IMG/VR virus record: IMGVR_UViG_3300029787_000439
Coordinates: 1 to 20,022 of that record
Origin: a virus
Length of the DNA stretch: 20,022 nucleotides
Direction: 5' to 3' (one strand)
In this document: positions 109-18,247 of the stretch, one piece after another
Layout of the letters: each line of letters opens with the position of its first letter
Numbering within the stretch: position 1 is the first letter of the stretch
Notes under the pieces: model-generated
Told to the model about the DNA's origin: nothing
The model's input: the letters and a program-made list of their open reading frames with translations, nothing else
The model's database searches: none
Position numbers and translations under genes: made by a program

Positions 109-184
109 ACCAGATTATGATTTTGTAACTGCTGTATGCATCACACTTTTAGTGATGTACTTAATTTCTATTCTTATTTTTTAA
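98..184 (+). CDS. Possible 28-residue single-pass membrane peptide
   Basis: An ATG at 98-100 inside the last codons of the preceding plus-strand frame opens 28 codons ending in TAA at 182-184. The two frames overlap by 11 bases, as in translationally coupled phage genes. The product begins MKFRPDYDF and continues as one hydrophobic stretch (about residues 10-28, with TAVCITLLVMYLISILIF), enough for one membrane helix. Its stop codon interlocks with the stop of the giant minus-strand gene (TTAA at 181-184). No Shine-Dalgarno is visible, as elsewhere in this window. Small membrane peptides at the end of late regions can be lysis-related (holin or spanin-like), but nothing here proves that. It could also be a chance ORF in AT-rich DNA. 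Confidence 0.35.
   Translation: MKFRPDYDFVTAVCITLLVMYLISILIF
137..181 (+). terminator. Weak hairpin with T-rich tail in the convergent zone
   Basis: TGCATCAC (137-144) can pair with GTGATGTA (152-159) around a 7-base loop, with one G-U pair. On the plus strand the stem is followed by a T-rich run that becomes TTTTTT only at 176-181, about 16 bases later. It is therefore not a textbook terminator, but it is the only stem I see where the two convergent transcription units meet. It lies inside the 28-codon ORF. On the minus strand no T-run follows. Confidence 0.25.
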
Positions 185-3100
185 TAGAATCCAGTGTCTT
201 CTTTAGATTTTTTATTGTCTTTATATTTTTTTGTTTTATAAATACTAAAGATGTCTTTGTAAAATGGAAGCAGTCCAAAGTTTCCACTAACTTGTATAAT
301 ATTTCTCATCCAATCAGTCTTTCCTTTAAGTTTTTCTTTCTTATCAAAATCTTCTTCTTCAGCTATACTCATTAAATTTGCACCTAATTTAGTCAAATCT
401 CTTAGCATTCTTCCGTAAATAGCATAAGGTCCTAATCCTGAAGTAACTGCAATTTCATAGAAATCTTGGACAGCTCTATCTTGTTTTATTTGTGAAAACA
501 CTAATGAATCTCTGTAATCATCGTACTCCTTACCACCCCTAAGAGACTCACCATATTTTTCATTTAAATTTTCAATATAACTATTTATAAAAATCATTGG
601 AACATTACCTAAAGTCCTTCTTGAAAACAAACTTAAAGCAGAGCCTAATACGCTTTGTTTTAACATACTCTCATAATCTTTTTCTTCGTCGGCTCCAAAA
701 GGCATCATCATCAAATTTCTTAAAGTTTCTCCAATTATTAAATAAGATGCCATACGCAAATTTAAAGCTAATAATGTTTGAGCTCCTTGAACTGGTGTCA
801 TTTCTCCTTGACCTATCATAGACGCTATAGCCTGTCTACCTGTAGCATATTCATTGATACTAAATTTAGCCATAAAAGAGTTAGCAGTTTTATATATTTG
901 CATAAGCGCATTATCGTCTCTATTTATCTGATTTTTTAATATTACGTCCGCCGCATTTGTGCTTGATGCTGCTCTTTGAACTGCAGTATCAGCAGCCCTA
1001 GTGGCTTCAAGAATAGCTTTTTTGTTTTGCCCTATATATTCCAAATCATTCTCAGCTAATTTTTTTAAATCTAAATCTTTGTTTGTTATTTTTTTAAACT
1101 CTGTACTTAATGTACCAAAAAATAAAGGTCTCGAGATAGATTTATCTGGAAAAGACAACAGATCTTCGGCTAACTTTATTGGAACTCCCTTTATTTTATC
1201 AGGTATTGAATTGGTTAACCTAGATATTTCATTTGCTATTTCTCCTTTAGCTCGTGTAGGTGATTTTTTATCCACTAATCCTCCTTTTTCTGCTTTTGAC
1301 CCAGTTAATTTTTCTTTACCAAACAGTCTAGAAAAACTTTTTGCTCCTATATTTCTAGCTATATCAAGTCCTTCATTATTATTATTTAAAGAATACCTTA
1401 TTAATTTTCCAGATGAACCCTTAATAAAATCTTTAGGAGCAGCTGTCATTACATAAGCGAGGTTGCTAGCTAACTCTCCTCCCGCTCTAGGAACGGAGGA
1501 TAAGGCTGCGTAATATCCTAATTCTCTAGTTTTTTGAAAAATTTTAAATCTAAAAGGAGAAGAAATATTATTTCCTATAGCTATTTGAACCATTTCATTG
1601 TAAGCATCTCTTAAAGCTCTACCCCCTTGTTCTTGTGTTTGATCTAATCCTTCTGTTTTATTAGAAATAGAACGCACTGTTTTACCTCCAACTCGTAAAG
1701 TGTTAGTTACATAATAATCTAAATTAGTTTCAGAAGTAGCTCTAATTAAAGTATTAATAGGGTCAAAGTCAATCGGTTTCACGCCTTTTGTTCTGTCCTT
1801 AGCTGTAGCTGATTGAGTAGAAGGTTTATCTGATAAATCTTTTTCTATGCTTTTGATTGCATCAGTTGCTTCTTTTTTTAAATCTGCTTGGTTAACCGAC
1901 ACATAATGATGAACGTAGTTATCTACTGCATCTAATTTATCACCCCTAACAATGGATGCCGCCACAATTGCTTTGTCTGTGTTTTCACTATATACGTCTT
2001 GAATTTTTTTGGTCGCTCTTTTTGTTCCAGCATCCATTGTATTGTAAATCTCTTGCGCAGATTTTCCTTCGTTTTCTTTTATTAATTCTTTTAAAATATT
2101 TATATCTGCATCTTGATAAATTGATCCGCTTTTACCTTTATAAGAATTAACAGTTTCTTTAGCCCACTCAACTCCAGGAGCAATTCCTTTAGTGTTAGGG
2201 TTTGATTCAGCTTCTAAAGTGGTTAAGTACATTGTTATTTTATATCTTTTTTTAACCGACTCATTTGTTGTTTGCCCTCCCCTAGATGCAATATCGCTTT
2301 CTATACTACTAACGGCTGCTAATACCTCTGAATTGGCAGCTTCAAATTTTGACATTGATCTTCCAAAAGGATCAAAGACATTGTTGTATATCTGTCTGCC
2401 TTTAAAGTTTCCGTAAACATCATCTATTACACTTAAAGGATTACTTCTAGCTATCTGTAATTGCGTTGATTTTCCTGTTAGTACGCTTTTTATTTTTCCA
2501 TAAATTAAAGATGCCCCACGAGCTATTTTATTTTTAGTTAACTTGCTTAGGATAGGCACCACTTCATTAGACTGTTTGTTTGCTTGTATAGTATTCATTA
2601 ACACATTAGCTTTATGTGTGTAAAAACCATTATTAATATTGTTTACATGAATTTGAAATTGTTCAAGTTGACTTCCTGTTAATTCTACTAAATCATTTTT
2701 AGTAACATCTTCAAATCTATTAGCAAACTCTTGTGAATAAAAATCTACTTTACTAGTTTGTACTTTTGATTTTGATATATCATCTATTAGTTTTTGACGA
2801 ATCTTAGCGTAGTCATTTATTTTTTTAACCGTTTCTGAGTTTTCTTTAGTTTCATCCTTGTTTACTTTATCAACTAGATTATATAAGGTGGGCGTGTCAA
2901 TATTGTCTAGCTTGTTTTCAATATAATCTTTATTGTCTTTTATAATTTGTTGGCCAGATATATCGTTATTATTTATTTCTTCTACAATTTTGTTGGTCTG
3001 GTTAATTTCTTTTTCGGTAGGCACTGGATCAGTGACTGTTATATCCTCTGTTAATTTATTATATAAAGAACTTGCTTTTTCAGTTATTGATTCAGCTTTT

Positions 3101-5526
3101 CCTAATTTTATTTGACCTCGTTTTTTAGAATAATCTTTTACGAACTCAGTGTACTCAACTAGCTGTTCACTGTTTAAAGACTCTAAGGGGATGTTTAGCA
3201 TCTTACTAATAGCAGCGTTAAAATTTCTATTAGCACCTATATTTCCTCCGCTTAAATTACTAACCGCTTTATCCCTAACCTTTGAAGCTTCAGATAACTT
3301 AGTGGAATAGTCTACGTCTCTACTAACTTTATCTGCAAACTCAACTAATTTGTCTACTTGAACTTTACTATCTATGTTTGTTTTATTAAGCTTTGATATA
3401 ATTTGAGTGGTTTGTTTTGGAGTTAGATTTCCTTTTTTTCCTATACCTTTAATTGCCGTAGTAAGTTTCTTAATTTTTTTCTTAGCAGATAAATTAGCCT
3501 CTCTTGCGGCCTTAGCTTCTAATTTGATCTGATCCTTAAGCGCTGACTTTTCATTAACAGTAACTTTTTTTATCGGAGGAGTAAGAGATTTATCAATTTC
3601 TTTTTGAAGTTTTGTTTTAGGTTGTTTTATCTCCTGGGTCTCTGAAACTTCAGTTTTATCCTGGCCCTCTTGGGTTGGTTCGACGGTCGTTTCTTCTTGG
3701 GCTTGCGTAATCTCTCCGGAAGGCTCTGTGGGTTGATTGTCTCCTTCAACCACTGCTTCGCCAACTTCGGATTGTTCTTCATTAAGTACCTCAGCTGGGC
3801 TTTTGATTGTATCGGCATCTTGTTGTAATTTATTTAATTCATCTAATTTATTTATTATATCTTGATCAGAAGGTTTATCAACCCCCTCTTCTAGTAATGC
3901 TTTAACAGCGTCATCTTTAGTTAATTCATTTATAGTAGTCTCAGCACCTGAACGCTCGCTTATGTTTTCGAGTTCTGTATTTATTTCTTGTATTCTGTTT
4001 TTTTGAGCCTTGACCAATGCCTCATCTTTTCCTGCTATTTGTGACTCTAGTTCTTTTTTTTCTGCCAACAACTTAAGCGCAGGAATTTGGTCATTCTGAT
4101 TAATATTTAAACCGTCGAGCTCATATGCTAAAGCCGCTTTTTTATCATAGTTATTAAGTATGTTATTTTTTTGTTCTGTTGTTATTTCATTTTTAGCAAC
4201 TTTCAAATCTAGAGTGCGCTCCAAAAACTGTTTGCTTTGCGGAACATTAAGTATGTCTAATTGAGTTTTATTTATAGGATCAATTGTAGGATCAGAGAAA
4301 GTTGAAGTAAAATCTTTATAGGAAGATTCGTTAACAATTTTTTTGATTTTATTCCCTCTTCTGTTTTGTCTAATTCGATTTATACCTACACCACTTACAG
4401 ACAATGGTCCGGTTGCTACACCTCCAATTAAAAAAGTTTCTAAGAATTCACTAAAAGAATTTTTAAAAGCGTCTTCGTCATCGTTCAATGCGTAATCACT
4501 CATTTTTTGTACTAATAAAGTTGCGTCTTCAGATAAACCTTCAAAAGCAAAGTCTTTGCTAACTCGTTTAGCCATATCTTTAACTGTTTTTAAAGTTGCA
4601 TCTGCACCTTTATTTAATAGACTTTTATAAAATCTACCTCCTATTTTTTTTGTTACAATCTCAAACACACCTTCTGCGGTTCCACTTATTATTGAGTTTA
4701 AACTAGTTTTATAATTTAAATCATCTCCTTCATCTTGGAGCTCAGCGCTTTTTCCTGCTATAGATCCCGCTATTATACTTCCAATTCCTGCAAGCGGTAC
4801 CATTGCCTGAACAAGACTAGGTAAAGAACCTAATGCTTCTACTGATATACGAGAAACTCCTCGCCCTACACTATCCAAATCTAAATCCTGTATTCCTGCT
4901 AAATCCTCTGTAATACTTTGATCATATTTAATGTAGGTATCTTGTATCTCTTTGGATTCTTTATTGTATTCATTATATAAATCTGCTCCTGCTTGTGTGT
5001 TAATTCCGACTCCTATTGCTCTGCCTCCTCCTAAAGACCCTAGCCCCTCATATATAGCCATAGAGGGGGCGTTTATTATTTTTTCTCTTTCTTCTCGTGG
5101 TAAAGCATTTATTTTTTCTAAAGCCTCAGGGTTTGTCAAACCTAAAACTCCGGTAAATATTTGCTCATTTATAGCTGTGGGAATTCTACGAAGTTGACCA
5201 AGTGCAGTTAAAGTATTAGCTTTTATTTTTCTACCCGCATCAACAAGTAAACTAGTGTTAGGCTCTATTTCTTCTTCTTCAACATTTACTGACTCATTTG
5301 ATTGAATAATCTCGGAGGACTCCAATGAACCACCTTCCAATGGTAATCCCGTAACGTCTTTTTTTTTTAATCCGTTAATAAATTGTTCTTCTGATTCAAA
5401 CATTCCTTGTGGCATGTATTCATAAAAATCACTTACCCCATTTTCGTTAGCATAAATAGTAAATTCATCTAAGTCCGCAAACATACCTTCAGGAATGAAT
5501 TCATATATTTCTTCGACTTCAAACAT
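181..5526 (-). CDS. Giant internal (ejected) virion protein, T7 gp16-position analogue
   Basis: This 1781-residue protein is the last gene of the minus-strand late block, 5 bases after the stop of the 589-residue gene. The N-terminus has two copies of a Y-E-[FY]-[IM]-P-[EQ]-G-M-F-x4-[EQ]-F motif (residues 8-22 and 35-49). A hydrophobic Gly/Ala-rich stretch follows at about 229-257, then long Lys/Glu/Asn-rich helical sequence, an acidic Glu/Gln/Thr/Pro linker at about 578-640, and a C-terminal third with small hydrophobic helices (about 1575-1640, e.g. LRMASYLIIGETLRNLMMM). The C-terminal section around ISRPLFFGTLSTEFKKIT recalls the C-termini of other giant phage polyvalent or internal proteins. 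T7 gp16 is about 1318 residues. I see no lytic transglycosylase signature. Position, size and the small upstream partners suggest a protein packed in the head and ejected to form a DNA channel; this is inference. The start is ATG at 5524-5526 with no Shine-Dalgarno. Confidence 0.85.
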   Translation of the reverse strand: MFEVEEIYEFIPEGMFADLDEFTIYANENGVSDFYEYMPQGMFESEEQFINGLKKKDVTGLPLEGGSLESSEIIQSNESVNVEEEEIEPNTSLLVDAGRKIKANTLTALGQLRRIPTAINEQIFTGVLGLTNPEALEKINALPREEREKIINAPSMAIYEGLGSLGGGRAIGVGINTQAGADLYNEYNKESKEIQDTYIKYDQSITEDLAGIQDLDLDSVGRGVSRISVEALGSLPSLVQAMVPLAGIGSIIAGSIAGKSAELQDEGDDLNYKTSLNSIISGTAEGVFEIVTKKIGGRFYKSLLNKGADATLKTVKDMAKRVSKDFAFEGLSEDATLLVQKMSDYALNDDEDAFKNSFSEFLETFLIGGVATGPLSVSGVGINRIRQNRRGNKIKKIVNESSYKDFTSTFSDPTIDPINKTQLDILNVPQSKQFLERTLDLKVAKNEITTEQKNNILNNYDKKAALAYELDGLNINQNDQIPALKLLAEKKELESQIAGKDEALVKAQKNRIQEINTELENISERSGAETTINELTKDDAVKALLEEGVDKPSDQDIINKLDELNKLQQDADTIKSPAEVLNEEQSEVGEAVVEGDNQPTEPSGEITQAQEETTVEPTQEGQDKTEVSETQEIKQPKTKLQKEIDKSLTPPIKKVTVNEKSALKDQIKLEAKAAREANLSAKKKIKKLTTAIKGIGKKGNLTPKQTTQIISKLNKTNIDSKVQVDKLVEFADKVSRDVDYSTKLSEASKVRDKAVSNLSGGNIGANRNFNAAISKMLNIPLESLNSEQLVEYTEFVKDYSKKRGQIKLGKAESITEKASSLYNKLTEDITVTDPVPTEKEINQTNKIVEEINNNDISGQQIIKDNKDYIENKLDNIDTPTLYNLVDKVNKDETKENSETVKKINDYAKIRQKLIDDISKSKVQTSKVDFYSQEFANRFEDVTKNDLVELTGSQLEQFQIHVNNINNGFYTHKANVLMNTIQANKQSNEVVPILSKLTKNKIARGASLIYGKIKSVLTGKSTQLQIARSNPLSVIDDVYGNFKGRQIYNNVFDPFGRSMSKFEAANSEVLAAVSSIESDIASRGGQTTNESVKKRYKITMYLTTLEAESNPNTKGIAPGVEWAKETVNSYKGKSGSIYQDADINILKELIKENEGKSAQEIYNTMDAGTKRATKKIQDVYSENTDKAIVAASIVRGDKLDAVDNYVHHYVSVNQADLKKEATDAIKSIEKDLSDKPSTQSATAKDRTKGVKPIDFDPINTLIRATSETNLDYYVTNTLRVGGKTVRSISNKTEGLDQTQEQGGRALRDAYNEMVQIAIGNNISSPFRFKIFQKTRELGYYAALSSVPRAGGELASNLAYVMTAAPKDFIKGSSGKLIRYSLNNNNEGLDIARNIGAKSFSRLFGKEKLTGSKAEKGGLVDKKSPTRAKGEIANEISRLTNSIPDKIKGVPIKLAEDLLSFPDKSISRPLFFGTLSTEFKKITNKDLDLKKLAENDLEYIGQNKKAILEATRAADTAVQRAASSTNAADVILKNQINRDDNALMQIYKTANSFMAKFSINEYATGRQAIASMIGQGEMTPVQGAQTLLALNLRMASYLIIGETLRNLMMMPFGADEEKDYESMLKQSVLGSALSLFSRRTLGNVPMIFINSYIENLNEKYGESLRGGKEYDDYRDSLVFSQIKQDRAVQDFYEIAVTSGLGPYAIYGRMLRDLTKLGANLMSIAEEEDFDKKEKLKGKTDWMRNIIQVSGNFGLLPFYKDIFSIYKTKKYKDNKKSKEDTGFY

Positions 5527-5531
5527 AAGGT

Positions 5532-7301
5532 TTAATATAATTTTTTATAATCAGTGAAAGTGCCATCAGGATTTTCTTTCTTCCATTCACTAAAAAGAGG
5601 AGGCTTTCCTGCTTGGTTAGCGTTTATTTTATTTATATATGTTTGCAAAGCGCTGCTTACTACCCCTGGATTTTCAGTGCTTCCTAATACTGTTTCTACA
5701 CCTTGAGAATTAGTAACGATAATATCATCCCCGGTTAATAAACCATCGGCATCTTTAAATGTTACTTTAAAATCTTCATCGGTATAAACATTTAAAATAC
5801 TACTTACTAGCCTAGTCATGTCATCAACACTTCCCTTTACTTTTTTTAATTCTGATTGTATGTTGTTGCTTTTAGGATCATCTGGATTAACTCTATTTTC
5901 TGCAAAATTAACTTTTCCTTTTTTTGCTTTAGTCTTGCTTGAGCTTACATTAATAGATTCTCCTTTTTCATCTTTGGTTATAAGTGTTCCAAACTTATAA
6001 TCCTTAGATAGTTCATCAAATGACAATTGATTTTCTGGATAGAATATTTCCATTAATATTCTTTGTGATCCTTCAGCAGGATAAGCGTCTGATTTTTGCA
6101 CTCCATTTTCATCTTTATAAACCACGGTTATTGTTTGCCCATCTTCAGACCTAATAATATCTTCATATCGTGTGGTAATTTTTCCGCTTTTTTCATTTTT
6201 ACGATTAATATTAGCTAACATTGTGTCAATAGCTTGTTGAGATTCTGCATTAGTTCCTGTAACCACCTTATCAACATTGCCTATGGTTGAAATTTCATTT
6301 TCTTTTATTTGTCCTACCGACTCTTGTAAGGTAGAAGGTTTTTCTTTTTGTGCCTCTTTAACTTCTCTTGGCAACGCTTTACGTAGTTCTTCAGCCATAA
6401 ACTTTACAGCCTTTTCCTCGTCACCTTCAGCAAAACCAAAAGTGCCATCTGGCTTTCTATATACAGTACCAGGTTCACCATCTTTACCAGGCTTTAAGTC
6501 TTCTTCTTTATAAACAACATCATACCCCATACCATCTACAAGTATCGAGACAGTGGGAGCTTGTGCGCCAGCAAGTAAATACTTGGCTTCGTCTTGCATC
6601 AATTTGCCAAGGTCTTCGTCGCTCAGGTCTGCTACATTTGCATATACACCAGTTATACTAGCTCCACTTCCCTCTATAATGCCTCTTTTACCAAACTGAT
6701 CAACTATAGTTTTAGCAACTTTACCATAATCATACTTAGGTAAATTACTGTTAGTCAAATCACTTAGGTAGGAAGGGCTAACTATGTCCCCTGTTTCTTT
6801 ATTAAATAATTTCAATCCTCCCCTACCATCTTGCTCTACCTCCATAGCTCCTGGCTGGAATACTTTATTAAACTCATTTAAATTATAAGTGTTAACAGCA
6901 CTAGCTTTATCGCTTGCTACATCATCAACAATCTGTTGTGCTGTTTTTTGATAGGAGGTTTGAGCTGCTATCATCTGCTCATTAGATTGGTTTAGGTTTC
7001 TCCACTGAGCTGAATATTCACTTGAGCTTATTTGACCAGTTTCTAGTTGGTTTTGTAATGAAGTAGAAACATCCATTATCCCTTGACTAAACTTTCCGAA
7101 AAACTGGTTAGCATTTTGGTTTACTGTTGGTGTGAGATCACGCTGGCTTTTTCTAAGCGCATCTTGTTCATCTCTCCAAGTCTGCCTTTGTTGTTCTCGT
7201 TTCTCTTCTTGAGCTAAAAGCGTATCAGATAAATCAAACAGCGCTGAAGTATCTGGAACTATTGCTTTATCCTGTAACTTAAAACCTATTTTAGTTGCCA
7301 T
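5532..7301 (-). CDS. Internal virion or cargo protein, T7 gp15-position analogue
   Basis: 589 residues, Gln/Ser/Asp/Lys-rich, with no signal peptide or membrane helix. Residues about 25-150 are strongly helical and coil-forming (many Glu, Gln and Arg, e.g. LLAQEEKREQQRQTWRDEQD). The middle and C-terminal parts mix charged loops with short beta-like segments, and the protein ends in a polar tail (FTDYKKLY). I recognise no catalytic motif. It lies between the small Ala-rich gene (10 bases upstream) and the giant gene (5 bases downstream), so all three are surely co-transcribed. In T7 the equivalent slot holds gp15 (about 747 residues), a tube-forming ejected core protein. By position this is the counterpart, but sequence similarity to gp15 is not evident by eye. 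The start ATG is 7299-7301. Confidence 0.85.
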   Translation of the reverse strand: MATKIGFKLQDKAIVPDTSALFDLSDTLLAQEEKREQQRQTWRDEQDALRKSQRDLTPTVNQNANQFFGKFSQGIMDVSTSLQNQLETGQISSSEYSAQWRNLNQSNEQMIAAQTSYQKTAQQIVDDVASDKASAVNTYNLNEFNKVFQPGAMEVEQDGRGGLKLFNKETGDIVSPSYLSDLTNSNLPKYDYGKVAKTIVDQFGKRGIIEGSGASITGVYANVADLSDEDLGKLMQDEAKYLLAGAQAPTVSILVDGMGYDVVYKEEDLKPGKDGEPGTVYRKPDGTFGFAEGDEEKAVKFMAEELRKALPREVKEAQKEKPSTLQESVGQIKENEISTIGNVDKVVTGTNAESQQAIDTMLANINRKNEKSGKITTRYEDIIRSEDGQTITVVYKDENGVQKSDAYPAEGSQRILMEIFYPENQLSFDELSKDYKFGTLITKDEKGESINVSSSKTKAKKGKVNFAENRVNPDDPKSNNIQSELKKVKGSVDDMTRLVSSILNVYTDEDFKVTFKDADGLLTGDDIIVTNSQGVETVLGSTENPGVVSSALQTYINKINANQAGKPPLFSEWKKENPDGTFTDYKKLY

Positions 7302-7311
7302 TGTTTAGTTT

Positions 7312-8094
7312 TTAATTATCTCTTTTGGGAAATATATTAGTAAACAAGTTTGACGCACCTCCACTAATACTCGATAATAAATTACCAAAATTAGTGCCAC
7401 CACCTAATGTATCTCTATATTCTGATCTAGACATTGTACCTCCTTCATCCCTATATTGTCCAAAACTTACTCCCGCAAACGGATCATTTGGATCACCTTG
7501 ATTTAAATACTCAGGTATTTGTTGACCAGCTATAGCTCCCATACTTGCAATACCTTGCATTGCTTGACTTTGGTAAGCAGCTCTGTTTTGAGCGGCTTGT
7601 TGAGCTGCCGCTTGTTGTCCTTCTACTTCTTTAACATCTAATCCTACCCTTAAGTTTTGTAGTCTTGATTCTTCCTGGGCCGCTGCTTTTTCTAAATCTG
7701 AAAGCTCTCTACCCATGGCTGCTCTTGTTTGAGCTTGTTGCGCTTGATTAAGAGCTGCGGCTCTACCCGCAGTAACTCCAGCGCCTCTTTGCTCTCCCTC
7801 TTGACCAGCTTGGACAATTTGTCCTAAGCCAGATAATGCGGCTTCTCTTTCTAGTTCATAAGGTTCTTTTTGAATAGACAAACCTTTCATATAATTTACC
7901 TCTAATTTTTCTCTTGCTTGTTCTAAAGCTTTGCTTGCTGCATCTTCAGCTTTTTGTTGTGCTTTTTTTTGCTTGGACGCGTTAGATAAACTTACTGCCG
8001 TGCCTGCAGTTGAGGCTGCAAAAGCAGCTCCCGCAGCTATAGTGCCTGCCTTAATTGTAGCTCCCGCTATTGCTGTTCCTGTTATTATTGCCAT
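7312..8094 (-). CDS. Small Ala/Gly-rich internal virion protein, T7 gp14 / P22 gp7-like
   Basis: 260 residues of very biased composition. Residues 3-36 are an Ala/Gly/Thr/Ile stretch that could insert in a membrane. Residues about 40-175 are Ala/Gln/Glu-rich and almost certainly helical, with runs such as AAAQQAAQNRAAYQSQAMQG. A second short hydrophobic patch (GIASMGAIAG, 181-190) precedes a Gly/Ser-rich tail. This pattern is typical of the small ejection proteins of short-tailed phages (T7 gp14, 196 residues, outer-membrane pore; P22 gp7). The start ATG lies one base after the stop of the GNAT-like gene (TAATATG), so translation by reinitiation is likely, and the 589-residue gene follows after 10 bases. 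Function is inferred from composition and position. Confidence 0.85.
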   Translation of the reverse strand: MAIITGTAIAGATIKAGTIAAGAAFAASTAGTAVSLSNASKQKKAQQKAEDAASKALEQAREKLEVNYMKGLSIQKEPYELEREAALSGLGQIVQAGQEGEQRGAGVTAGRAAALNQAQQAQTRAAMGRELSDLEKAAAQEESRLQNLRVGLDVKEVEGQQAAAQQAAQNRAAYQSQAMQGIASMGAIAGQQIPEYLNQGDPNDPFAGVSFGQYRDEGGTMSRSEYRDTLGGGTNFGNLLSSISGGASNLFTNIFPKRDN

Positions 8095-8095
8095 A

Positions 8096-8506
8096 TTAAA
8101 ACGATTTAATCATTTCTTGTGTGTATGTATCGCCCTTAATATAACCCAGCTTCTCGTATGTTTTAACAAGACCATCGTGTTTTATAAGGGCATAGGTGTA
8201 TTTATTTCCGTTGTTTTTACAAGTATTAGTGAGGGCCTCTACCAGCATTTGCACAGCTTTGTGCTTTCTTTTTTTCTTTGTGTATTTTTTATTTGATATT
8301 ATCCAGTCCACCCAGGCTACTTTTGAATTTGTTATATATATAAACCCTGCGCATACAGGGACGTCGTTGTCTAATACTAGCAAACCACCTTCTCCATCAT
8401 CTGGCAAAAATTCTTTTGCCGGAGGCTCCCATCCCCAGTCCTCCCACCAACCAACAAGTATATCCTTGTAATCAGTAGAATTAAGTTTACGTATATTAAA
8501 CTTCAT
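8096..8506 (-). CDS. GNAT-fold protein, T7 gp13-position analogue
   Basis: 136 residues with the outline of a GCN5-related N-acetyltransferase. The C-terminal motif is clear (residues 111-122, DGLVKTYEKLGY, followed by a beta-strand ending TQEMIKSF). The acetyl-CoA pyrophosphate loop region (about 74-86, KYTKKKRKHKAVQ) is basic and lacks a clean Q/R-x-x-G-x-G/A, so catalytic activity is doubtful. The N-terminal WWEDWGWEPP motif and the central NSKVAWVDWIIS occur, from memory, in many marine phage 'acetyltransferases'. T7 gp13 is 138 residues, also has a GNAT-like fold, and precedes genes 14-16 exactly as here. I infer a role in building the internal core or in maturing the virion, though modification of a host or phage protein remains possible. 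The gene has its own predicted promoter 7 bases upstream of the ATG. Confidence 0.88.
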   Translation of the reverse strand: MKFNIRKLNSTDYKDILVGWWEDWGWEPPAKEFLPDDGEGGLLVLDNDVPVCAGFIYITNSKVAWVDWIISNKKYTKKKRKHKAVQMLVEALTNTCKNNGNKYTYALIKHDGLVKTYEKLGYIKGDTYTQEMIKSF

Positions 8507-8513
8507 ACACTAA

Positions 8514-8521
8514 CAAAGATA
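8514..8521 (-). promoter_or_regulatory. Bacteroidota-type promoter -7 box (TATCTTTG) for the GNAT-like gene
   Basis: The minus strand reads TATCTTTG, an exact match to TAnnTTTG, then TTAGTGT and the ATG. Transcription would begin within a few bases of the start codon, giving an almost leaderless mRNA. I find no convincing -33 TTG at 17-23 bases upstream. It would drive the 13-16-like block separately from the tail genes. Confidence 0.45.
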
Positions 8522-8528
8522 CTAATTT

Positions 8529-9350
8529 TTATGGATAGCTTTTCATTATCTGAGACTCTACCGCAAAGAGCTCTGCTCTATTGGGACCTATATTTTCTAA
8601 AGTCATTAAAGCATAGTGTCCAAGGATCCCATGAGATTCAGCAATTGAATTTTTTAAAGCCATCATTAACGGAGTGTTTGTAGTAGGATTAGTAGCTCCC
8701 GCTATTGTGCTGTCCACAGTTATAGAGCTTGTGGCAATGGTAGTAATAACCCCTGCTAAAGCAGGTGAATTAGTAAACTCATTTAAATAATAAAGATAAT
8801 CCCCAATACTAATTATTGAATCAATAGGAACTACAAAAGAAAAAACTCTAGGGTTAGTCATTGTAAACCCTGTGGTACTTCCGATTCCATTTACAGATCT
8901 AAAATCAAAATCAGCTAATGTTGATGGAGTCTGAGAAGTGTTTTTAATAGCGGCATAATAAGCGCCCTCTTTCAGCTCAAACCATGTGTTGTTTATAAAG
9001 GCTTCATTATTCATGTCTGTGTTCAGACTTATATTCCACGGAGCATCCGCTTCTAAACCAATGGTTTTAAATAATTTATTGTTAAGCGGCGAGTCGTTAA
9101 TTACAGTAGTTATTGTACTGTTATGTTGAGTTCCATAAAAATTATTACGCAGTAAATTAGTATTGTGCCTATAAAGATTGCCACCTGAAAAAGTATAAAA
9201 ATAGTTATTCATCCCTACCATATAGTCAGGGTTGTATGAATAAAAAGAAGGCCAACCGTTTACACCGTTGCTGTATGTGAGCGTATATAGCTCACCATCA
9301 GGCACTTGAGGTGTTGCAATTGGATTCGGTGATGAAGGGATTGATGCCAA
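8529..9350 (-). CDS. Conserved marine-phage structural protein of unknown role
   Basis: 273 residues starting at a TTG (minus-strand codon at 9348-9350). An in-frame TAA lies five codons upstream and the next ATG is only at about residue 44, inside conserved-looking sequence, so the TTG is the best start. The N-terminus is Pro/Ser-rich (IPSSPNPIATPQ). A recognisable block follows (LTYSNGVNGWPSFYSYNP, then DYMVGMNNYFYTFSGGNLYR), and the C-terminus has SIAESHGILGHYALMTLEN and ends ESQIMKSYP. From memory this combination recurs in uncultured marine phage genomes beside tail or head genes, usually unnamed. It looks beta-rich and soluble, with no signal peptide. Its place between glycosyltransferase and internal-protein genes, with its own predicted promoter, suggests a virion surface component. 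Function not established. Confidence 0.82.
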   Translation of the reverse strand: MASIPSSPNPIATPQVPDGELYTLTYSNGVNGWPSFYSYNPDYMVGMNNYFYTFSGGNLYRHNTNLLRNNFYGTQHNSTITTVINDSPLNNKLFKTIGLEADAPWNISLNTDMNNEAFINNTWFELKEGAYYAAIKNTSQTPSTLADFDFRSVNGIGSTTGFTMTNPRVFSFVVPIDSIISIGDYLYYLNEFTNSPALAGVITTIATSSITVDSTIAGATNPTTNTPLMMALKNSIAESHGILGHYALMTLENIGPNRAELFAVESQIMKSYP

Positions 9351-9355
9351 AGTAA

Positions 9356-9372
9356 TTGTATTTTAAATACAA
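9356..9372. promoter_or_regulatory. 17-bp palindrome at a predicted transcription start
   Basis: TTGTATTT (9356-9363) and AAATACAA (9365-9372) are perfect inverted copies around one central base. The palindrome begins within the 3' end of the -7 box at 9370-9377 and covers the expected start of transcription of the 273-residue gene. The arms are too close to form a hairpin, so a dimeric DNA-binding protein site is a better guess. It may be chance in AT-rich DNA. Confidence 0.3.
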
Positions 9373-9401
9373 ATATACAAAAATTTAATCCTGCTATGCA
9401 A
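9370..9401 (-). promoter_or_regulatory. Bacteroidota-type promoter (TTG-N21-TATATTTG) for the 273-residue gene
   Basis: On the minus strand TTG (9401-9399) is followed after 21 bases by TATATTTG (9377-9370), which fits TTG-N17-23-TAnnTTTG as described for Flavobacterium. The -33 element overlaps the stop region of the preceding gene. The leader to the TTG start codon would be about a dozen bases. Confidence 0.5.
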
Positions 9402-9918
9402 CGGGCGTAGCCGTAGGAGTAGGAGTAGGTGGCACTGGTGTGGGTGTTGGTGTAAGCGTAGGAACAAAAGTCGGTGTAGGTGTAGGAGTTATTTGTGTTC
9501 CGCCTATACATATTTGTGCTGACCCTTTTGTTCTTCCCTCTGGGTCATCAATTACAAGTTCAAATGTCAATATGGTGTAGTCCCCACTAAGCATTGGTGT
9601 TACTGGGTTAGAAGGAAAATATACTTGGCTTGGACCAAAGCTATAAGCAGGCACCATTATCGAAGAAGGATAGAATCTAGTATACTCGTTTCCTAAAGCG
9701 TCTAATATTACTCCAATCCCATAGACTTTCCCTGAACCACTTAACCAATTAGTCCTAATAAACGGAGATAATCCTGCGGTTAAAGTTAGGTTGTTAGCAA
9801 GAGTTATAATTTCTCTATTGGCTACATTATATCTAACTCCATCTATTCCTAAGTATTGGGTAATGGTTGGAGCAGAAGTCCCCGTTCTTACTTCAGCAGT
9901 ACATGTAATGAAACTCAT
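9394..9918 (-). CDS. Small beta-rich protein with a C-terminal Thr-Pro tail
   Basis: 174 residues. Residues 1-143 look like one beta-rich domain (e.g. YGIGVILDALGNEYTRFYPS, GDYTILTFELVIDDPEGRTK) with two Cys. Residues 144-174 are a low-complexity tail in which 24 of 31 residues are Thr or Pro, mostly TPTP units, ending TATPVA. Such tails are extended, linker-like and classic O-glycosylation or hydroxyproline substrates. The gene is 30 bases downstream of a glycosyltransferase of the hydroxyproline GlcNAc-transferase type, so it is a candidate acceptor (inference). It has no signal peptide or membrane segment. A virion decoration or fibre-like protein is likely from its position among structural genes. 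I do not recognise the folded domain. The start ATG is 9916-9918, directly after a predicted -7 box. Confidence 0.82.
   Translation of the reverse strand: MSFITCTAEVRTGTSAPTITQYLGIDGVRYNVANREIITLANNLTLTAGLSPFIRTNWLSGSGKVYGIGVILDALGNEYTRFYPSSIMVPAYSFGPSQVYFPSNPVTPMLSGDYTILTFELVIDDPEGRTKGSAQICIGGTQITPTPTPTFVPTLTPTPTPVPPTPTPTATPVA
9397..9489. repeat. Low-complexity Thr-Pro codon repeat
   Basis: These 93 bases encode the 31-residue Thr/Pro tail. On the plus strand they read as degenerate GGTGTA/GGAGTA hexamers. The array is imperfect, so length change by slippage is possible but the codons are already diverged. The plus strand is unusually G-rich compared with the AT-rich surroundings. Confidence 0.75.
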
Positions 9919-12537: not shown

Positions 12538-15500
12538 TTAAGTTGGACATCCTATTTTTATATGCCACGCTGTAGTTGGAAGCGGGCCATATACTTTTAT
12601 TGTACAGGTTGTGGTTGCTGTTGTTTTTTGAAAAGTAAAAGTATGCCAAGTGTTATTGGTTGTAACTCCATTTATTTCCGTGACATATCCACCATTAGAA
12701 ACTCTAGGTAAAGGCGCTGTTCCATTAGGCTCATAAGCTTGACCTGTAAACGCACCGTTATTAGGCTCGACGTAATAAGTTCCTGTGTCTGGATCTATAC
12801 CTTGTAGTGTTGCTAATAATCCCTGAGGCCCTTTATACCAATCGCTACCCACGCCTATACCCATATATCGTGTGTCTATTACTACCGCTCCGTCAAACTC
12901 TACTATAAGTCTATCAGGTAGGGCCTCAGCTAAAAACTCTACTGATACTGTACCAGTACCTGACCCTAAAGTATATGTTTGAGCATCAGGATAGTTGTTT
13001 CCTCCAGAATAGCTAGCAGCGCTACCACATGGTGTCGTCGGTAAAACAGGAACACATCCACAGCAAGCATTGTATGCTGTTGTATTTATACACAAAGTAG
13101 CTGCTGTTATTTTTCTGTAATCCCAAATCAAATACAGATTATCATCAGCTGTAGTCATTGTTGGCATAGTAAAGGTTGCATAATTAGTGTCCCCACTATT
13201 TATAATCGGTGTGGCTTCAGCGGAAGCAGTAACTAACGCGTTCATGTCGGTAACATTATTACTATAAACAGTAGAACTTCTTAAATAACGTAATTTATTA
13301 GAACCTTGATCAAATAAATAAGTGTCTGTAGGAAATTTATTACTTATTATACTAACAATAGCTCCTTCGTCTGGAACGGTGTTGGAGCCTAAAGCTCCTG
13401 TGAGGGTTTCATACTGAGATATAATTGTTCCACTACCTGTTTCAAATTGAACTAAATTAGTTTGAGTGGGTGAGGAAAATACATTATCTGTCCATCTATA
13501 TTCATTATGAATTGTTTTACCTGCATCTGTATTACTTGTCAAAGCAATATTGTAAACAGTAATTAAGTTTTCTACCGGACAACTAACTGTAACTTCCGCA
13601 GAATCAGAAACTAGACCTGAAGTTGAAGCTTCAATAGTAACCTCTGATTCATCAATGTTATTTTTTGGAATAGTGAAACTTCCACTCACAAAGACTAAAC
13701 CACTAGTATATTTAACACCATTATAATATGCGTTAAAGGTATACCCAACTCCTGTGTTTGTGTCTTGAGTTACAATCGGAGAGACTCCAGCTTCTGTTTC
13801 CATTTCTTCAAGCCCTCCAGCAGGTGTGTTTACCTCTGTAATTATATCATCATCTGAAGCATTTGGAATTATATAAGATACTGTAACCTGACCAACAGCT
13901 TGACCCACGTCTACGCAATAAATATTTCTTTTACCTGGTTCAATTACAAGGTTTTCTGATACGTCACAAGCAAGACATAAAACAAAATCAAATGTGTTTT
14001 GTAAATTTTTAGCCAATACAAACTCATTCATATAAGGATCGTAACCGCCAAGCTTTTGAGTACCTAAGGAATCAATAAAGAAATCTCTAAACCATCCACG
14101 CATTCCTCGTTCAGAAATAACAGTAAGCTCTTCAGCGCCACCAGACCCGCCTCGTAATCTTATAACTGCACCTCTTTTTGCGTCTACAAAATATTTATCA
14201 AAGCCCCATACCGCAAAACTTTCAGGATTATTACTTATACCATACTCTTCGTCTCTAGCAATTTGCACACCTAACACCTGAGGTACACTTGTAAGGGCTC
14301 CTCCTCCAGTAGCATCTGTTAATAAGTCTTTTCCTACAGGCACATAAGATATTTTATCTTCTTGTATTGTAAGAATATCGGTACGTCTAGCGTATAGTTT
14401 TCTAATTGGACCAAAAGAATCTTCTAATGGACTAAAGTTTAGTAAACCTAAATTAAATTCGTTAAGTTTATTTACATTACTTTCATCATTAAATACACCG
14501 CTATAAGTTAAATCAGAAAATCTATGAGCTTCTTTATATATCTGAGAAGATGTGGTTGTTGTTCTATTACCAAAATTCATAGGCCTTCCTGTAATAGAGT
14601 CTCTTATTTTATAACTTTCTATGCCGTTTCCAAAAGCAATACAGTTTGAAAAACCTGTGTCTATAATTGCATCTTGGGCAGTTACTACTCCAGAGTTATC
14701 AAAATCAACTATTTGGCTTTGAGAGCTTCCAGTGTGTTGACCAAATGCATCTATGGGAAAAGATAAATCGTTTTCATACCAAACATCAGGTAACGCATCT
14801 AAAGGTTGTGTTTCAAAAACTATATTAATGCTTGCTCTTATTACTTCTATATTAACCTCTATACCTGTAGTTCTACTGCCATTACAATTTCGGTCACCTG
14901 TAATTCCTAAAAAAGTTTCTCCTGTTGCGCTTCCTCCTGAGTCGCTTTTAAAAAATTGAAAGAAAAATTTAGCGTTTGCTTGTGAAGGAAGATCAGAATT
15001 ATTTGGCGTAGCTGTAGATATACTTTGTAAACTAGAATCATAAGAAATAATACCATTAAAATCCCCATCATTATCACCACAAATAAAAGTTGAATTAGTT
15101 TGAATTAGACCAGTCGATGCCGTACCCAAGCCTTCATTATCAAAAAACTCTTTAAAATTAGTATAATTAGCTTTTGCAATAATAGTTTGATCATACCTCC
15201 AAGTTCTTCTTTCACAATCAGCACCACAGTTTTTTCTACCATTTCTTACACCTTGTATGGTAATTCTAACTTGACTAGCAGCGGGTATATCGTAATCGAT
15301 AAATTGACTAGTTCCCGTACCCCCTGGATTTTTAACACTTACTGGGTAAAATAATTTTGGATAATGGTTTCGATCTCCAGCTGTACGAGAAAGATTCCCA
15401 TAACTTATAAAACTATCTAAATTATCCCCTGATTCAACAGCGAAATTATTAGGTATCATTTTCATATACGTTCCTGCTGGAGCTTTTACTTTGTCTCCAG

Positions 15501-17148
15501 TTGGATCTAATGGATTGGTAAACTCTATAAATCCTAACGCCATGTTCTCTTTTTCTAAAACAACAGCAGTAGTACACTTTCTTCTAACTCCTGCAGCGTC
15601 GCTCTTCACAATTAAACGATCTCCTGCTTCTACCTTGTTTGCGTTTTCTCCTTCTAAAAGAAAATAAACACCATTAGAATTATCGCCACGAACAAAAGAT
15701 GAAACAAAAATAGTTTCGTAAGTAGTTTTATCTGGCTTTATACAAAACTTGTATCTCGTTGCCCAATAAGGCGCAATTTGTGCTGATGGCCCACCAGCTT
15801 GACCACCAGGGATATTAACCGTAATACTATTAGCTGTACCAGAGTCGCCACACGATGTAGAAACAGTATTAAAAGGACTTACTAAAGCGGTAGATGATCT
15901 GTTAAAATCATCCATATATATTATTCCTATTTCATACCCTCGATTACTATGTAAGCTATAATTATCGTTAGAACTTATAAACGATCCAGAAATACTTGTT
16001 ACTGAAAAATACTCATAGGATTCATTTGCCCCATCAATCCATTTCATGGCTAACAATTGAAGAACTATATCGTCCGAATTTGGTTGAGATAAAATTGTTA
16101 AACCTTGAGGAGAAGTGGTGACACCACTTGCACTTTTAGTAAAGGTGCTTAAATTGGTAGGTATTTCACAATTAAAAGCATCCGTAAATGTAAATCCATT
16201 ACACGAGTTAGGTACTGTTTGTACGTTTGAGGCTGTTCCTATTGCAGAAATAAAATCAGGGTCTTGAGTCAAAGCATAAACTGTAGAATAATCTCTTAAC
16301 AGCTCATAGCTAAAACTAACAGTTGTAACCCCAGTTGCAGAAGTGGGAGCTGTTCCAACGGCTGCATAAAAAGAATTGTGAACAAAAGATAAATCCCATG
16401 TAATTTGATTGCCTCTTTTTAAAGTTTTCCCTGTTAGATTTAAAGCAAAGGTTGAGTTGGGTATGCTTACTGATGAGCCAAAAGTATAGTTTGAGGTGGT
16501 TCCAATAGTGTCCGTAAGCTCAGATTCTTCAATTTCGGCAGATAGTAAAGTAGTTTGATAACTAAAATTTACAGCGTTATTAAATCTGTCTTTTAAATTA
16601 TAACCTTCAAAATAATTTCCGTAAACTAATCTGTTACCCATTAAAGTTTGTGCTTGTGCTTTTAATGGTACATTGTCGTAAAGCCTAAGTATTTCGTTTT
16701 CAGGAAGAACTGTAAATATTTTTTGATTTTCAAAATTAAATAAAAAGGTGTTGTTGTCTCCTAAACCCAATACGGCTTTGTCAAATCGCTCTATAATTTT
16801 AATAGTGGGGTCAGACATATCTTTAAACAAAAGCTCTATGTCTGTAACTAAAGGACCCCCAGTGTTAAAACTAATGTCAACCGCATTAATAGAGTTGACC
16901 ATTCCTTCATTTAGAAAACTAGTGGGTGTAAATTGAAAAGGTCCCGCTCTAAAAGCAGGATTACTAAATTGTGATACTGCAGAAAACTCTCCGTTTTGAT
17001 ATTGGTATCTGTAAGCAAAGCAAATAAACCTGTCTTCTAAAAAAGTACCCCCATTAGGAATTGTTTTTAAAACAATAGTAGGCGCTGCTAAAGGTGGTTT
17101 TTTTATAACCAAAATACTTTCTGCACTAAATTGATCTCTATACGACAT
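12538..17148 (-). CDS. DNA-stabilisation / tail 'muzzle' protein, C-terminal part, with adhesion modules
   Basis: 1536 residues. It starts with a segment I recognise from the interior of crAss-like stabilisation proteins: VIKKPPLAAPTI (14-25), FLEDRFICFAYRYQYQNGEF (36-55) and NRLVYGNYFEGYNL (172-185). Further conserved segments follow: NPESFAVWGFDKYFVDAKRG (about 975-1000) and GGYDPYMNEFVLAKN (about 1035-1050). Residues 815-826 match a canonical EF-hand calcium loop (D-x-D-N-S-G-x5-D). After about 1060 the protein changes to Ig-like and adhesion-like modules and a Cys-rich linker (ACCGC). A C-terminal jelly-roll-like domain (SYSGGNNYPDAQTYTLGSGT to the end) resembles carbohydrate-binding modules of phage tail proteins. 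In other phages the stabilisation protein seems to be one chain; here its N-terminal part is the upstream gene, one base away (TAATATG). Likely role: distal short tail that seals DNA and contacts the cell surface. Confidence 0.88.
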   Translation of the reverse strand: MSYRDQFSAESILVIKKPPLAAPTIVLKTIPNGGTFLEDRFICFAYRYQYQNGEFSAVSQFSNPAFRAGPFQFTPTSFLNEGMVNSINAVDISFNTGGPLVTDIELLFKDMSDPTIKIIERFDKAVLGLGDNNTFLFNFENQKIFTVLPENEILRLYDNVPLKAQAQTLMGNRLVYGNYFEGYNLKDRFNNAVNFSYQTTLLSAEIEESELTDTIGTTSNYTFGSSVSIPNSTFALNLTGKTLKRGNQITWDLSFVHNSFYAAVGTAPTSATGVTTVSFSYELLRDYSTVYALTQDPDFISAIGTASNVQTVPNSCNGFTFTDAFNCEIPTNLSTFTKSASGVTTSPQGLTILSQPNSDDIVLQLLAMKWIDGANESYEYFSVTSISGSFISSNDNYSLHSNRGYEIGIIYMDDFNRSSTALVSPFNTVSTSCGDSGTANSITVNIPGGQAGGPSAQIAPYWATRYKFCIKPDKTTYETIFVSSFVRGDNSNGVYFLLEGENANKVEAGDRLIVKSDAAGVRRKCTTAVVLEKENMALGFIEFTNPLDPTGDKVKAPAGTYMKMIPNNFAVESGDNLDSFISYGNLSRTAGDRNHYPKLFYPVSVKNPGGTGTSQFIDYDIPAASQVRITIQGVRNGRKNCGADCERRTWRYDQTIIAKANYTNFKEFFDNEGLGTASTGLIQTNSTFICGDNDGDFNGIISYDSSLQSISTATPNNSDLPSQANAKFFFQFFKSDSGGSATGETFLGITGDRNCNGSRTTGIEVNIEVIRASINIVFETQPLDALPDVWYENDLSFPIDAFGQHTGSSQSQIVDFDNSGVVTAQDAIIDTGFSNCIAFGNGIESYKIRDSITGRPMNFGNRTTTTSSQIYKEAHRFSDLTYSGVFNDESNVNKLNEFNLGLLNFSPLEDSFGPIRKLYARRTDILTIQEDKISYVPVGKDLLTDATGGGALTSVPQVLGVQIARDEEYGISNNPESFAVWGFDKYFVDAKRGAVIRLRGGSGGAEELTVISERGMRGWFRDFFIDSLGTQKLGGYDPYMNEFVLAKNLQNTFDFVLCLACDVSENLVIEPGKRNIYCVDVGQAVGQVTVSYIIPNASDDDIITEVNTPAGGLEEMETEAGVSPIVTQDTNTGVGYTFNAYYNGVKYTSGLVFVSGSFTIPKNNIDESEVTIEASTSGLVSDSAEVTVSCPVENLITVYNIALTSNTDAGKTIHNEYRWTDNVFSSPTQTNLVQFETGSGTIISQYETLTGALGSNTVPDEGAIVSIISNKFPTDTYLFDQGSNKLRYLRSSTVYSNNVTDMNALVTASAEATPIINSGDTNYATFTMPTMTTADDNLYLIWDYRKITAATLCINTTAYNACCGCVPVLPTTPCGSAASYSGGNNYPDAQTYTLGSGTGTVSVEFLAEALPDRLIVEFDGAVVIDTRYMGIGVGSDWYKGPQGLLATLQGIDPDTGTYYVEPNNGAFTGQAYEPNGTAPLPRVSNGGYVTEINGVTTNNTWHTFTFQKTTATTTCTIKVYGPLPTTAWHIKIGCPT

Positions 17149-17149
17149 A

Positions 17150-18247
17150 TTAAATAGTTAAAGTATAAGTTACACCATCTACTAATTTTAAACCACTGAG
17201 CTGTAAAGATCCTAGAGCCTCTGGATTATAAACATTTAAGTTTTCATCTATGTAAGACAAAATGCCAACCGCATAAGAACAAGAAAAAATTCCACTTGAT
17301 CCGTCACTACCTGTAATATTACCCGATATAATTCCTGTTCCAGGATTAGAAGTTCCAGAAGATAATATTAATCCCATTAATCCCGTTCCATCTGGAAATT
17401 GGGTAAACATTGTAAAAGCTAAACCACTTGCGTCATTAGCTCCTTGTATTCCATAACCCCGTGTAAAAGGAAAAGTATTAACAACAGGAGCGCCTTGAAG
17501 AAAAGCTACAGACCCATATGTGTAACAGCCCGTTCCTGGTAAATCTATCTGGGTGGTTGTTGGTGCGACCCCAACCCCTATACCATTCACTGGTGTTGGG
17601 CACCCTAATAAAGTTCCTCGATGAAAACCTATTACTCCTCCTGAAGAATCCACATAAGCTCCAGCAGTAAAAACAAAAGCTGTTGTCTGATTTGGATTAG
17701 TAATAATTGAAGTTGATTCAATAGGCTCTGCATAAGCATTTTTTATATTTATAAATCTTGGAGGGTTTAAAAAATCAGTAAAAAATAATAAATCGCCTAC
17801 CTTGTCGGTGCCTGTAATTAAAAACTGTGGGTTAAAATTTAATGTAGTGTTTTCTCCTGTACCATCATCAATGCTTACAATATGATAAATAAGTTGTCCC
17901 GTTAGTACATTAAGGGAAACTATCATGTCTAATTTACCTGTATTGCCTAGAGGAAAATTAGGGTCGTGAACAAACCAATATAATGTTTCGTTAGCACCAT
18001 CTTCATACACACCTATAGTTCTTGCTTCGCTACTTAAAGGGGTATTTGTTGAAGTAATAGGGTCAATAAAATAAAGCTCTGTTAATCTTGAATTACCCTT
18101 GGCATTTTCTACGGACCCAACCTCCGACTCTTCGGTTGAACCAAGCCTTACGTTTAACGCATCAACATACTCGCCGTTAGGTAGCAGCCTTTCGTCAAGG
18201 CTTTTATTCATTCGCCCTAATACAAAATTTCTTTGCGTTTTTGCCAT
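17150..18247 (-). CDS. DNA-stabilisation / tail 'muzzle' protein, N-terminal part, with extra domain
   Basis: 365 residues. The start (NFVLGRMNKSLDERLLPNGE, 7-26; then YVDALNVRLGSTEESEVGSV, 27-46) is the characteristic N-terminus of stabilisation or muzzle proteins of Bacteroidota podoviruses. LLFFTDFLNPPRFINIKNAY (153-172) is the next conserved strand group. In single-chain relatives, as I recall them, this is followed almost directly by the VIKKPPLAAPTI segment that opens the next gene. Here residues about 178-360 form an additional Gly/Thr/Pro-rich beta domain, and the protein stops. The two genes are in different frames with one base between stop and start, and the junction has no classic slippery heptamer. 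Either the gene has truly split at a domain insertion or an indel breaks one ORF. The start ATG is 18245-18247, one base after the previous stop (TAAAATG). Confidence 0.85.
   Translation of the reverse strand: MAKTQRNFVLGRMNKSLDERLLPNGEYVDALNVRLGSTEESEVGSVENAKGNSRLTELYFIDPITSTNTPLSSEARTIGVYEDGANETLYWFVHDPNFPLGNTGKLDMIVSLNVLTGQLIYHIVSIDDGTGENTTLNFNPQFLITGTDKVGDLLFFTDFLNPPRFINIKNAYAEPIESTSIITNPNQTTAFVFTAGAYVDSSGGVIGFHRGTLLGCPTPVNGIGVGVAPTTTQIDLPGTGCYTYGSVAFLQGAPVVNTFPFTRGYGIQGANDASGLAFTMFTQFPDGTGLMGLILSSGTSNPGTGIISGNITGSDGSSGIFSCSYAVGILSYIDENLNVYNPEALGSLQLSGLKLVDGVTYTLTI

Follow-up and report, generated by a model that had tools for sequence, protein, structure and literature searches.

A T7-style gene block, probably encoding ejection proteins, in a phage with crAss-like tail genes

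The 20,022-base viral contig IMGVR_UViG_3300029787_000439, analysed over its whole length (the window) and thus a fragment of a phage genome, carries 12 long genes, all on the minus strand, whose products measure 248, 304, 365, 1536, 439, 407, 174, 273, 136, 260, 589 and 1781 amino acids (aa) in the order of transcription. The last four encode a GNAT-like protein, a small protein rich in Ala and Gly, a middle-sized protein and a giant. They raise the question whether a phage with a crAss-like tail delivers its DNA by means of internal virion proteins arranged as gp13-gp16 of phage T7. An earlier note had read them as the T7 order rebuilt with unrelated-looking proteins, the GNAT-like product being a gp13-like core factor and the block an ejected DNA channel. 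Our comparisons suggest that the block is quite probably the internal-virion cassette (ejection proteins, DNA channel) of a crAss-like short-tailed flavobacterial phage. The conserved adjacency of the genes, the mass-spectrometric identification of their counterparts in a relative and a weak resemblance to T7 gp14 all speak for the reading of the note; its equation of the other members with gp13, gp15 and gp16 found no such backing.

The four genes lie head to tail, separated by gaps of 1, 10 and 5 nucleotides (nt), and their adjacency, sizes and coordinates (Table 1) agree with the listing of open reading frames (ORFs). T7 gp13-gp16, as the note had said, measure 138, 196, 747 and 1318 aa; they are encoded after the tail genes gp11 and gp12. 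Order, rough sizes and place after the tail genes are alike in T7, P-SSP7, HTVC011P and the window. A search with the GNAT protein retrieved 32 contigs, and the family profile retrieved at least 599 stretches, at least 569 of them from relatives. In 117 of the 120 loci fetched, 1-12 nt separate the GNAT gene from the Ala/Gly-rich gene behind it; 12 of these loci come from contigs that had been fetched before, and the figure corresponds to about 105 of 108 distinct places. The three exceptions are a contig end (L025) and two Gundel-type loci. The adjacency, which the note had singled out for a check in relatives, is kept in almost all of them, and is more than chance. On contigs that extend far enough, a third gene of mostly 450-730 aa comes next, and then a giant of 1410 aa and up. 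The same order is found in the isolates Flavobacterium phage vB_FspP_elemoC (135, 205, 449 and 3694 aa), Caudoviricetes sp. ctfjg026 (136, 302, 644 and 3859 aa), Cellulophaga phage phi38:1 (132, 200, 549 and 1691 aa) and Maribacter phage Panino (169, 216, 500 and 1829 aa). The GNAT proteins of elemovirus and ctfjg026 are 32% and 47% identical to that of the window, the Ala-rich protein of ctfjg026 is 34% identical, and the elemovirus giant gives a partial match. The giants of both are far larger, however, and the records of both lack a description of an ejection cassette. Divergence grows along the block: in six relatives identity to the window is 59-87% for the GNAT protein, the best conserved of the four, 36-66% for the small, 21-53% for the middle and 24-30% for the giant protein. 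On one contig of 99577 bases (IMGVR_UViG_3300046002_004363; loci L149 and L150) two GNAT loci of the elemovirus kind lie some 65 kb from each other, and their neighbours differ slightly; the contig represents two related genomes joined or an assembly artefact.

The block is preceded by a box, TATCTTTG, fitting TAnnTTTG, the flavobacterial -7 consensus (PMC9723704). The motif occurs within 60 nt upstream of the GNAT gene in 84 of 88 distinct loci, in most of them 14-15 nt before the start; the 88 loci are related, and the 84 occurrences are not independent events. As controls, the motif was found upstream of the Ala-rich gene in two of the 88 loci, and the reversed motif in none. The box is presumed to mark the start of the block transcript and would act as its promoter, which would make the GNAT gene the first of the transcript. 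In T7 the promoter phi13 lies just before gene 13.

Virion proteomics, named in the note as a way to check the idea, has in effect already been done for a relative. In phi38:1 and phi40:1 (Pervagoviridae, Callevirus) gp097-gp101 encode the muzzle and counterparts of all four block proteins (132, 200, 549 and 1691 aa) in the same order, and each of the five carries in the phi40:1 record the remark 'structural protein, annotation based on experimental MS/MS proteomics analysis' (MS/MS, tandem mass spectrometry). This evidence is the annotation of the phi40:1 record, as distinct from the underlying spectra, and concerns that phage, not the one in the window. Profiles built from the window and its metagenomic relatives only were searched among real, shuffled and reversed proteins. 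They recognized gp098 as a GNAT relative (E 4e-12) and gp099 as an Ala-rich relative (E 1.5e-22), and matched none of the decoys. A similarity of gp098 to the elemovirus GNAT (E 9e-7) is likewise recovered when all phage records are searched. The middle and giant proteins of phi38:1 and phi40:1, in contrast, have little or no detectable sequence similarity to those of the window, and the muzzle of these phages is in one piece. gp100 is the counterpart of the middle protein by position only, gp101 that of the giant by position and by indirect partial matches, BLAST aligning part of it with the elemovirus giant.

The label Ala/Gly-rich is correct, A+G content ranging from 24 to 31% in the complete homologues from the first 32 loci. 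Of 27 family members, 26 have a top hydropathy peak that begins at residues 1-9, and T7 gp14 has its hydrophobic segment at residues 1-19, also at the N-terminus. The Pfam family T7_gp14 (PF24072) is matched by 10 of 66 Ala-rich proteins, with a best E of 3.8e-5, and any other family by at most two. In a scan of 50 whole records T7_gp14 gave 10 matches, nine falling on the Ala-rich gene by coordinates and the three best covering nearly the whole model; gp099 of phi38:1 matches model positions 1-180. None of ten reversed Ala-rich proteins matched. The gathering score of the family (27 bits) is reached by no protein, the best relative scoring 21.3 bits, and the 260-aa protein of the window itself gives zero match. 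The description of the proteins as unrelated-looking is true for ordinary sequence search: tblastn of the 260-aa and 589-aa proteins against phage records returned zero matches, as did a search of the PDB with the Ala-rich, middle and giant profiles.

The label GNAT-like is also correct, if weak by sequence, Acetyltransf_10 being matched below the cut-off (E 0.0068). The sole PDB match of the family profile is 1mk4 (E 0.02, profile positions 3-124), weak and nearly full-length; this entry was deposited as a hypothetical protein, and we take it to be a Bacillus GNAT. The acetyl-CoA P-loop [QR]xxGx[GA], the pyrophosphate-binding motif, is found in none of 67 family members; a WW..W stretch, LP and AGF.Y.T.S hardly vary. 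Because the motif is missing in all 67, the protein is probably not an enzyme, the acetyl-CoA motif having been lost. A check by eye of T7 gp13 and its P-SSP7 and HTVC011P counterparts likewise revealed no acetyl-CoA motif. That such a GNAT is the counterpart of T7 gp13 was already proposed in 2019 for roseophage SIO1 by Bischoff et al. (PMC6775973). In SIO1 and other cobaviruses the GNAT gene (pc40) immediately precedes that of a small internal virion protein. The layouts of SIO1, P-SSP7 and HTVC011P all agree with a GNAT beside internal virion genes. Yet pc40 matches the GNAT family of the window weakly (E 0.0012, ten sequences), and SIO1 has T7-like tail genes and no annotated muzzle.

Less can be said by homology of the two larger proteins. 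The family phrog_35506 is matched by the middle proteins of 17 of 26 relatives, that of the window excepted. Profile-profile comparison with T7 gp15 was not significant, and phrog_1339 found no match in 50 records, where the controls were silent too; homologues of gp15 are in any case assigned mostly by size and synteny (PMC8954989). Giants of 1410 to 3859 aa occupy the same position in relatives. Residues 1031-1625 of the window giant align with the elemovirus giant, and segments comparable to its membrane-like residues 238-256 occur in phi40:1 gp101 and in the elemovirus and Panino giants. Homology to T7 gp16 was not found for the giant by profile-profile comparison. The families share a hydropathy pattern, the small proteins having an N-terminal segment, the middle ones none, and the giants one or two; in outline the same is seen in T7 gp14, gp15 and gp16. 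DUF3293 is recognized in two giants (best E 1e-12) and a GNAT domain, weakly, in one or more. In one locus (L009:13229-20402) the giant is made up of two ORFs of 1410 aa and at least 947 aa, a split gene or a frameshift.

Several results weigh against an ejection cassette of T7 type. Profile-profile comparisons were significant neither for the GNAT family and T7 gp13 (P 0.014-0.022) nor for the Ala-rich family and gp14 (P 0.04-0.15), and a reciprocal search of 17 T7-like genomes was empty. A gp14 model of our own, for which 33 true gp14 sequences were used, gives Ala-rich sequences similar scores whether they are real, reversed or shuffled, and among the 66 proteins E values of 2e-4 are attained by unrelated families as well. 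The Phage_T7_Gp13 family (PF11090) stays below its gathering score; it is matched in three of 50 records, all three times on the GNAT gene, at no more than 14.5 bits, and weakly matches unrelated bacteria and an archaeon as well. The shared GNAT fold alone might suffice for such matches. Specific homology of the GNAT protein to gp13 is thus not borne out, the match being no better than a generic GNAT would give. The middle profile detects only the ctfjg026 protein and misses those of elemovirus and phi40:1, the giant profile detects only the elemovirus giant and misses gp101, so that gp100 and gp101 correspond to the window proteins largely by position. A transglycosylase (SLT) domain like the N-terminal one of T7 gp16, or another muralytic domain, was found in none of 16 giants; P22 gp16 also lacks an SLT domain (PMC8954989). 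The GNAT gene is inverted in Gundel, where it adjoins the Ala-rich gene from the other strand, and lies a few small genes away in phi46:3, phi13:2 and phi19:3, being thus set apart in phages of the phi19:3 type. The records of phi46:3, phi13:2, elemovirus and Gundel call the GNAT 'hypothetical' and its neighbours 'structural'; it may therefore be present in particles in small amounts or in some lineages only. The virion proteome of the T7-like phage phiPsa17 contains gp14-gp16, gp13 not being listed (PMC4517105), whereas the counterpart of gp13 is in phi40:1 virions according to the record.

Part of these results would be explained if the likeness to T7 were convergent or coincidental. Small helical Ala-rich, medium and giant late genes are common in podophages, and the Pfam matches may reflect composition, as suggested by the failure of the gp14 model against shuffled sequences, by the scores of unrelated families and by the stray matches of PF11090. 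This remains a serious, if less probable, explanation. The lack of T7_gp14 matches among reversed proteins and the near full-length span of the best genomic matches argue against composition, and the conserved order and the MS/MS presence are independent of Pfam matches; convergence of sequence would moreover still be compatible with a function in ejection. Homology of the Ala-rich protein to gp14 is accordingly worded here as likely but unproven.

Two other explanations concern the nature of the proteins. As the tail genes of the window are crAss-like, the block might be a diverged form of the cargo set of crassviruses, which in crAss001 comprises C1, C2 and parts of an RNA polymerase; the giant would then be an RNA polymerase of the virion or some other cargo enzyme. 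The muzzle gene of crAss001 is indeed followed by gp45 (C1, 842 aa), gp46 (C2, 534 aa) and gp47 (2341 aa), which like gp49 and gp50 are found in virions; gp45 and gp46 have been proposed to form a channel (PMC10172136). Yet neither the block proteins nor their family profiles match gp45, gp46, gp47, gp49 or gp50, crAss001 has no GNAT and no small Ala-rich protein of 200-260 aa after the muzzle, and C1 carries its hydrophobic helix at about residues 136-158. DxDxD occurs once in the window giant and is missing from the phi40:1 and Panino giants, so a conserved polymerase motif is not indicated. The giant as RNA polymerase was rejected, given the lack of a conserved DxDxD and of a match to crAss001 subunits, and descent from the crassvirus set is unlikely. 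The different set that crAss001 has after its muzzle fits the remark that cargo may vary among crassviruses (PMC10172136). Still less probable is that the GNAT protein is an active acetyltransferase, serving host takeover (Rac-like, as in phiKMV-like phages) or modifying virion proteins, and merely sharing the late operon. It has similarity to the GNAT superfamily (Acetyltransf_10, 1mk4), is the best conserved protein of the block, lacks a structural annotation in several relatives and lies on the other strand in Gundel; acetyltransferases of other phages act on the host, according to a paper citing the Rac work (PMC10504331). The uniform lack of the acetyl-CoA motif, the presence of the homologue gp098 in phi40:1 virions, and the late position with a near-constant 1-nt gap to the small virion gene are hard to reconcile with such a role.

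Reading the block as an ejection cassette, and drawing on T7 (PMC11784390) and on the proposal for C1 and C2 of crAss001 (PMC10172136), we infer the following course of events. The three larger products would be packed in the head or tail. At adsorption the Ala/Gly-rich protein would exit first, and its hydrophobic N-terminal segment would become inserted into the outer membrane. The middle protein would form the periplasmic part of the tube, and the giant, with its one or two membrane-like segments, would reach the inner membrane, so that the DNA could cross an envelope which the tail cannot span. Podophage ejection genes in general follow such a succession of small, medium and large sizes (PMC8954989). 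The GNAT-like protein, devoid of the acetyl-CoA motif, would be a small morphogenesis or core factor instead of an enzyme, as is thought for T7 gp13. More tentatively, and with the odds rather against it, the dead GNAT fold and the Ala-rich ejection protein may be an ancient pair, shared by common descent between T7-like and crAss-like podophages. If so, one ancestral ejection module would serve two tail architectures, nozzle and muzzle, and the GNAT would be a factor dedicated to core assembly and able to enter the particle itself.

Table 1. Features of the window, with coordinates, strand and supporting evidence
Feature	Coordinates	Strand	Evidence or remark
Two tail-ring-type virion structural proteins, 304 and 248 aa	18249..19912	-	phrog_13977 (3e-43), phrog_14543 (6e-40)
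Muzzle in two ORFs, 365 aa (17150-18247) and 1536 aa (12538-17148)	12538..18247	-	PF25731 on the 365-aa ORF
Muzzle C-terminal domain as a separate 273-aa protein	8529..9350	-	PF25729 (E 2e-15); directly upstream of the block
Flavobacterial -7 promoter box (TAnnTTTG), TATCTTTG	8514..8521	-	15 nt before the GNAT start
GNAT-like protein, 136 aa	8096..8506	-	phrog_17252 (7e-40); position of T7 gp13; acetyl-CoA P-loop absent
Ala/Gly-rich small virion protein, 260 aa	7312..8094	-	phrog_13764 'virion structural protein'; position of T7 gp14
N-terminal hydrophobic segment, residues 9-27 of the Ala/Gly-rich protein	8014..8070	-	hydropathy
Middle protein, 589 aa	5532..7301	-	position of T7 gp15; no family match or hydrophobic segment
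Giant protein, 1781 aa	181..5526	-	position of T7 gp16; no transglycosylase domain
Transmembrane-like hydrophobic segment, residues 238-256 of the giant	4759..4815	-	hydropathy
Conserved C-terminal region, residues 982-1774 of the giant	205..2583	-	phrog_32588 (E 3e-70)

The genes upstream of the block place the phage. A homologue of the smaller (248-aa) ring-type protein, phi40:1 gp095, is a virion protein by MS/MS according to the record. The 365-aa and 1536-aa ORFs align with residues 1-180 and 176-1516 of the ctfjg026 muzzle, and the 273-aa protein with the C-terminus of the undivided muzzles of phi40:1 and elemovirus. BLAST neighbours of the tail proteins are ctfjg026, the Flavobacterium elemoviruses, the Cellulophaga phages phi38:1 and phi40:1, phi46:3 and Maribacter phage Panino. 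From the tail-gene families and these neighbours the phage is a crAss-like podophage, and its host presumably a flavobacterium. Comparison at the DNA level with phage records revealed none near the window.

The muzzle, a single polypeptide in phi40:1 and elemovirus, is spread here over the 365-, 1536- and 273-aa ORFs. The 439-, 407- and 174-aa genes lie between the muzzle ORFs of the window (12538-18247 and 8529-9350), and both the 174-aa (9394-9918) and the 273-aa ORF match phrog_38031, a family of 460 aa in one piece. These two ORFs are separated by about 43-48 nt in the window (gap 9351-9393) and in four other contigs (L006, L007, L010 and L032), and in all five the 273-aa gene has a TTG start preceded by a TATATTTG box. 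Since the arrangement and the TTG recur at the same place in the four other contigs, a sequencing error was rejected as the cause of the split. The 407-aa gene (9949-11172) encodes a GlcNAc-type glycosyltransferase (PF11397, E 5e-73; phrog_24687) within the tail gene cluster, and a gene of 403-409 aa is found near this position in several relatives.

The block is of a known kind. New is the T7-style arrangement in phages with crAss-like tails; in addition, this arrangement is conserved almost throughout these phages, their GNAT has lost the acetyl-CoA motif, and the block can be tied to MS/MS evidence that already existed. Hundreds of viral contigs contain flavobacterial phages of this tail type, and we found no account of their ejection apparatus; the comparison names the likely channel proteins. 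It suggests that a gene often labelled 'acetyltransferase', and read as serving host takeover or metabolism, encodes an inert virion or assembly factor. phi38:1 and phi40:1 are a cultured phage pair in which this reading is testable. If the link to T7 is true, it would also be of use in identifying the role of T7 gp13.

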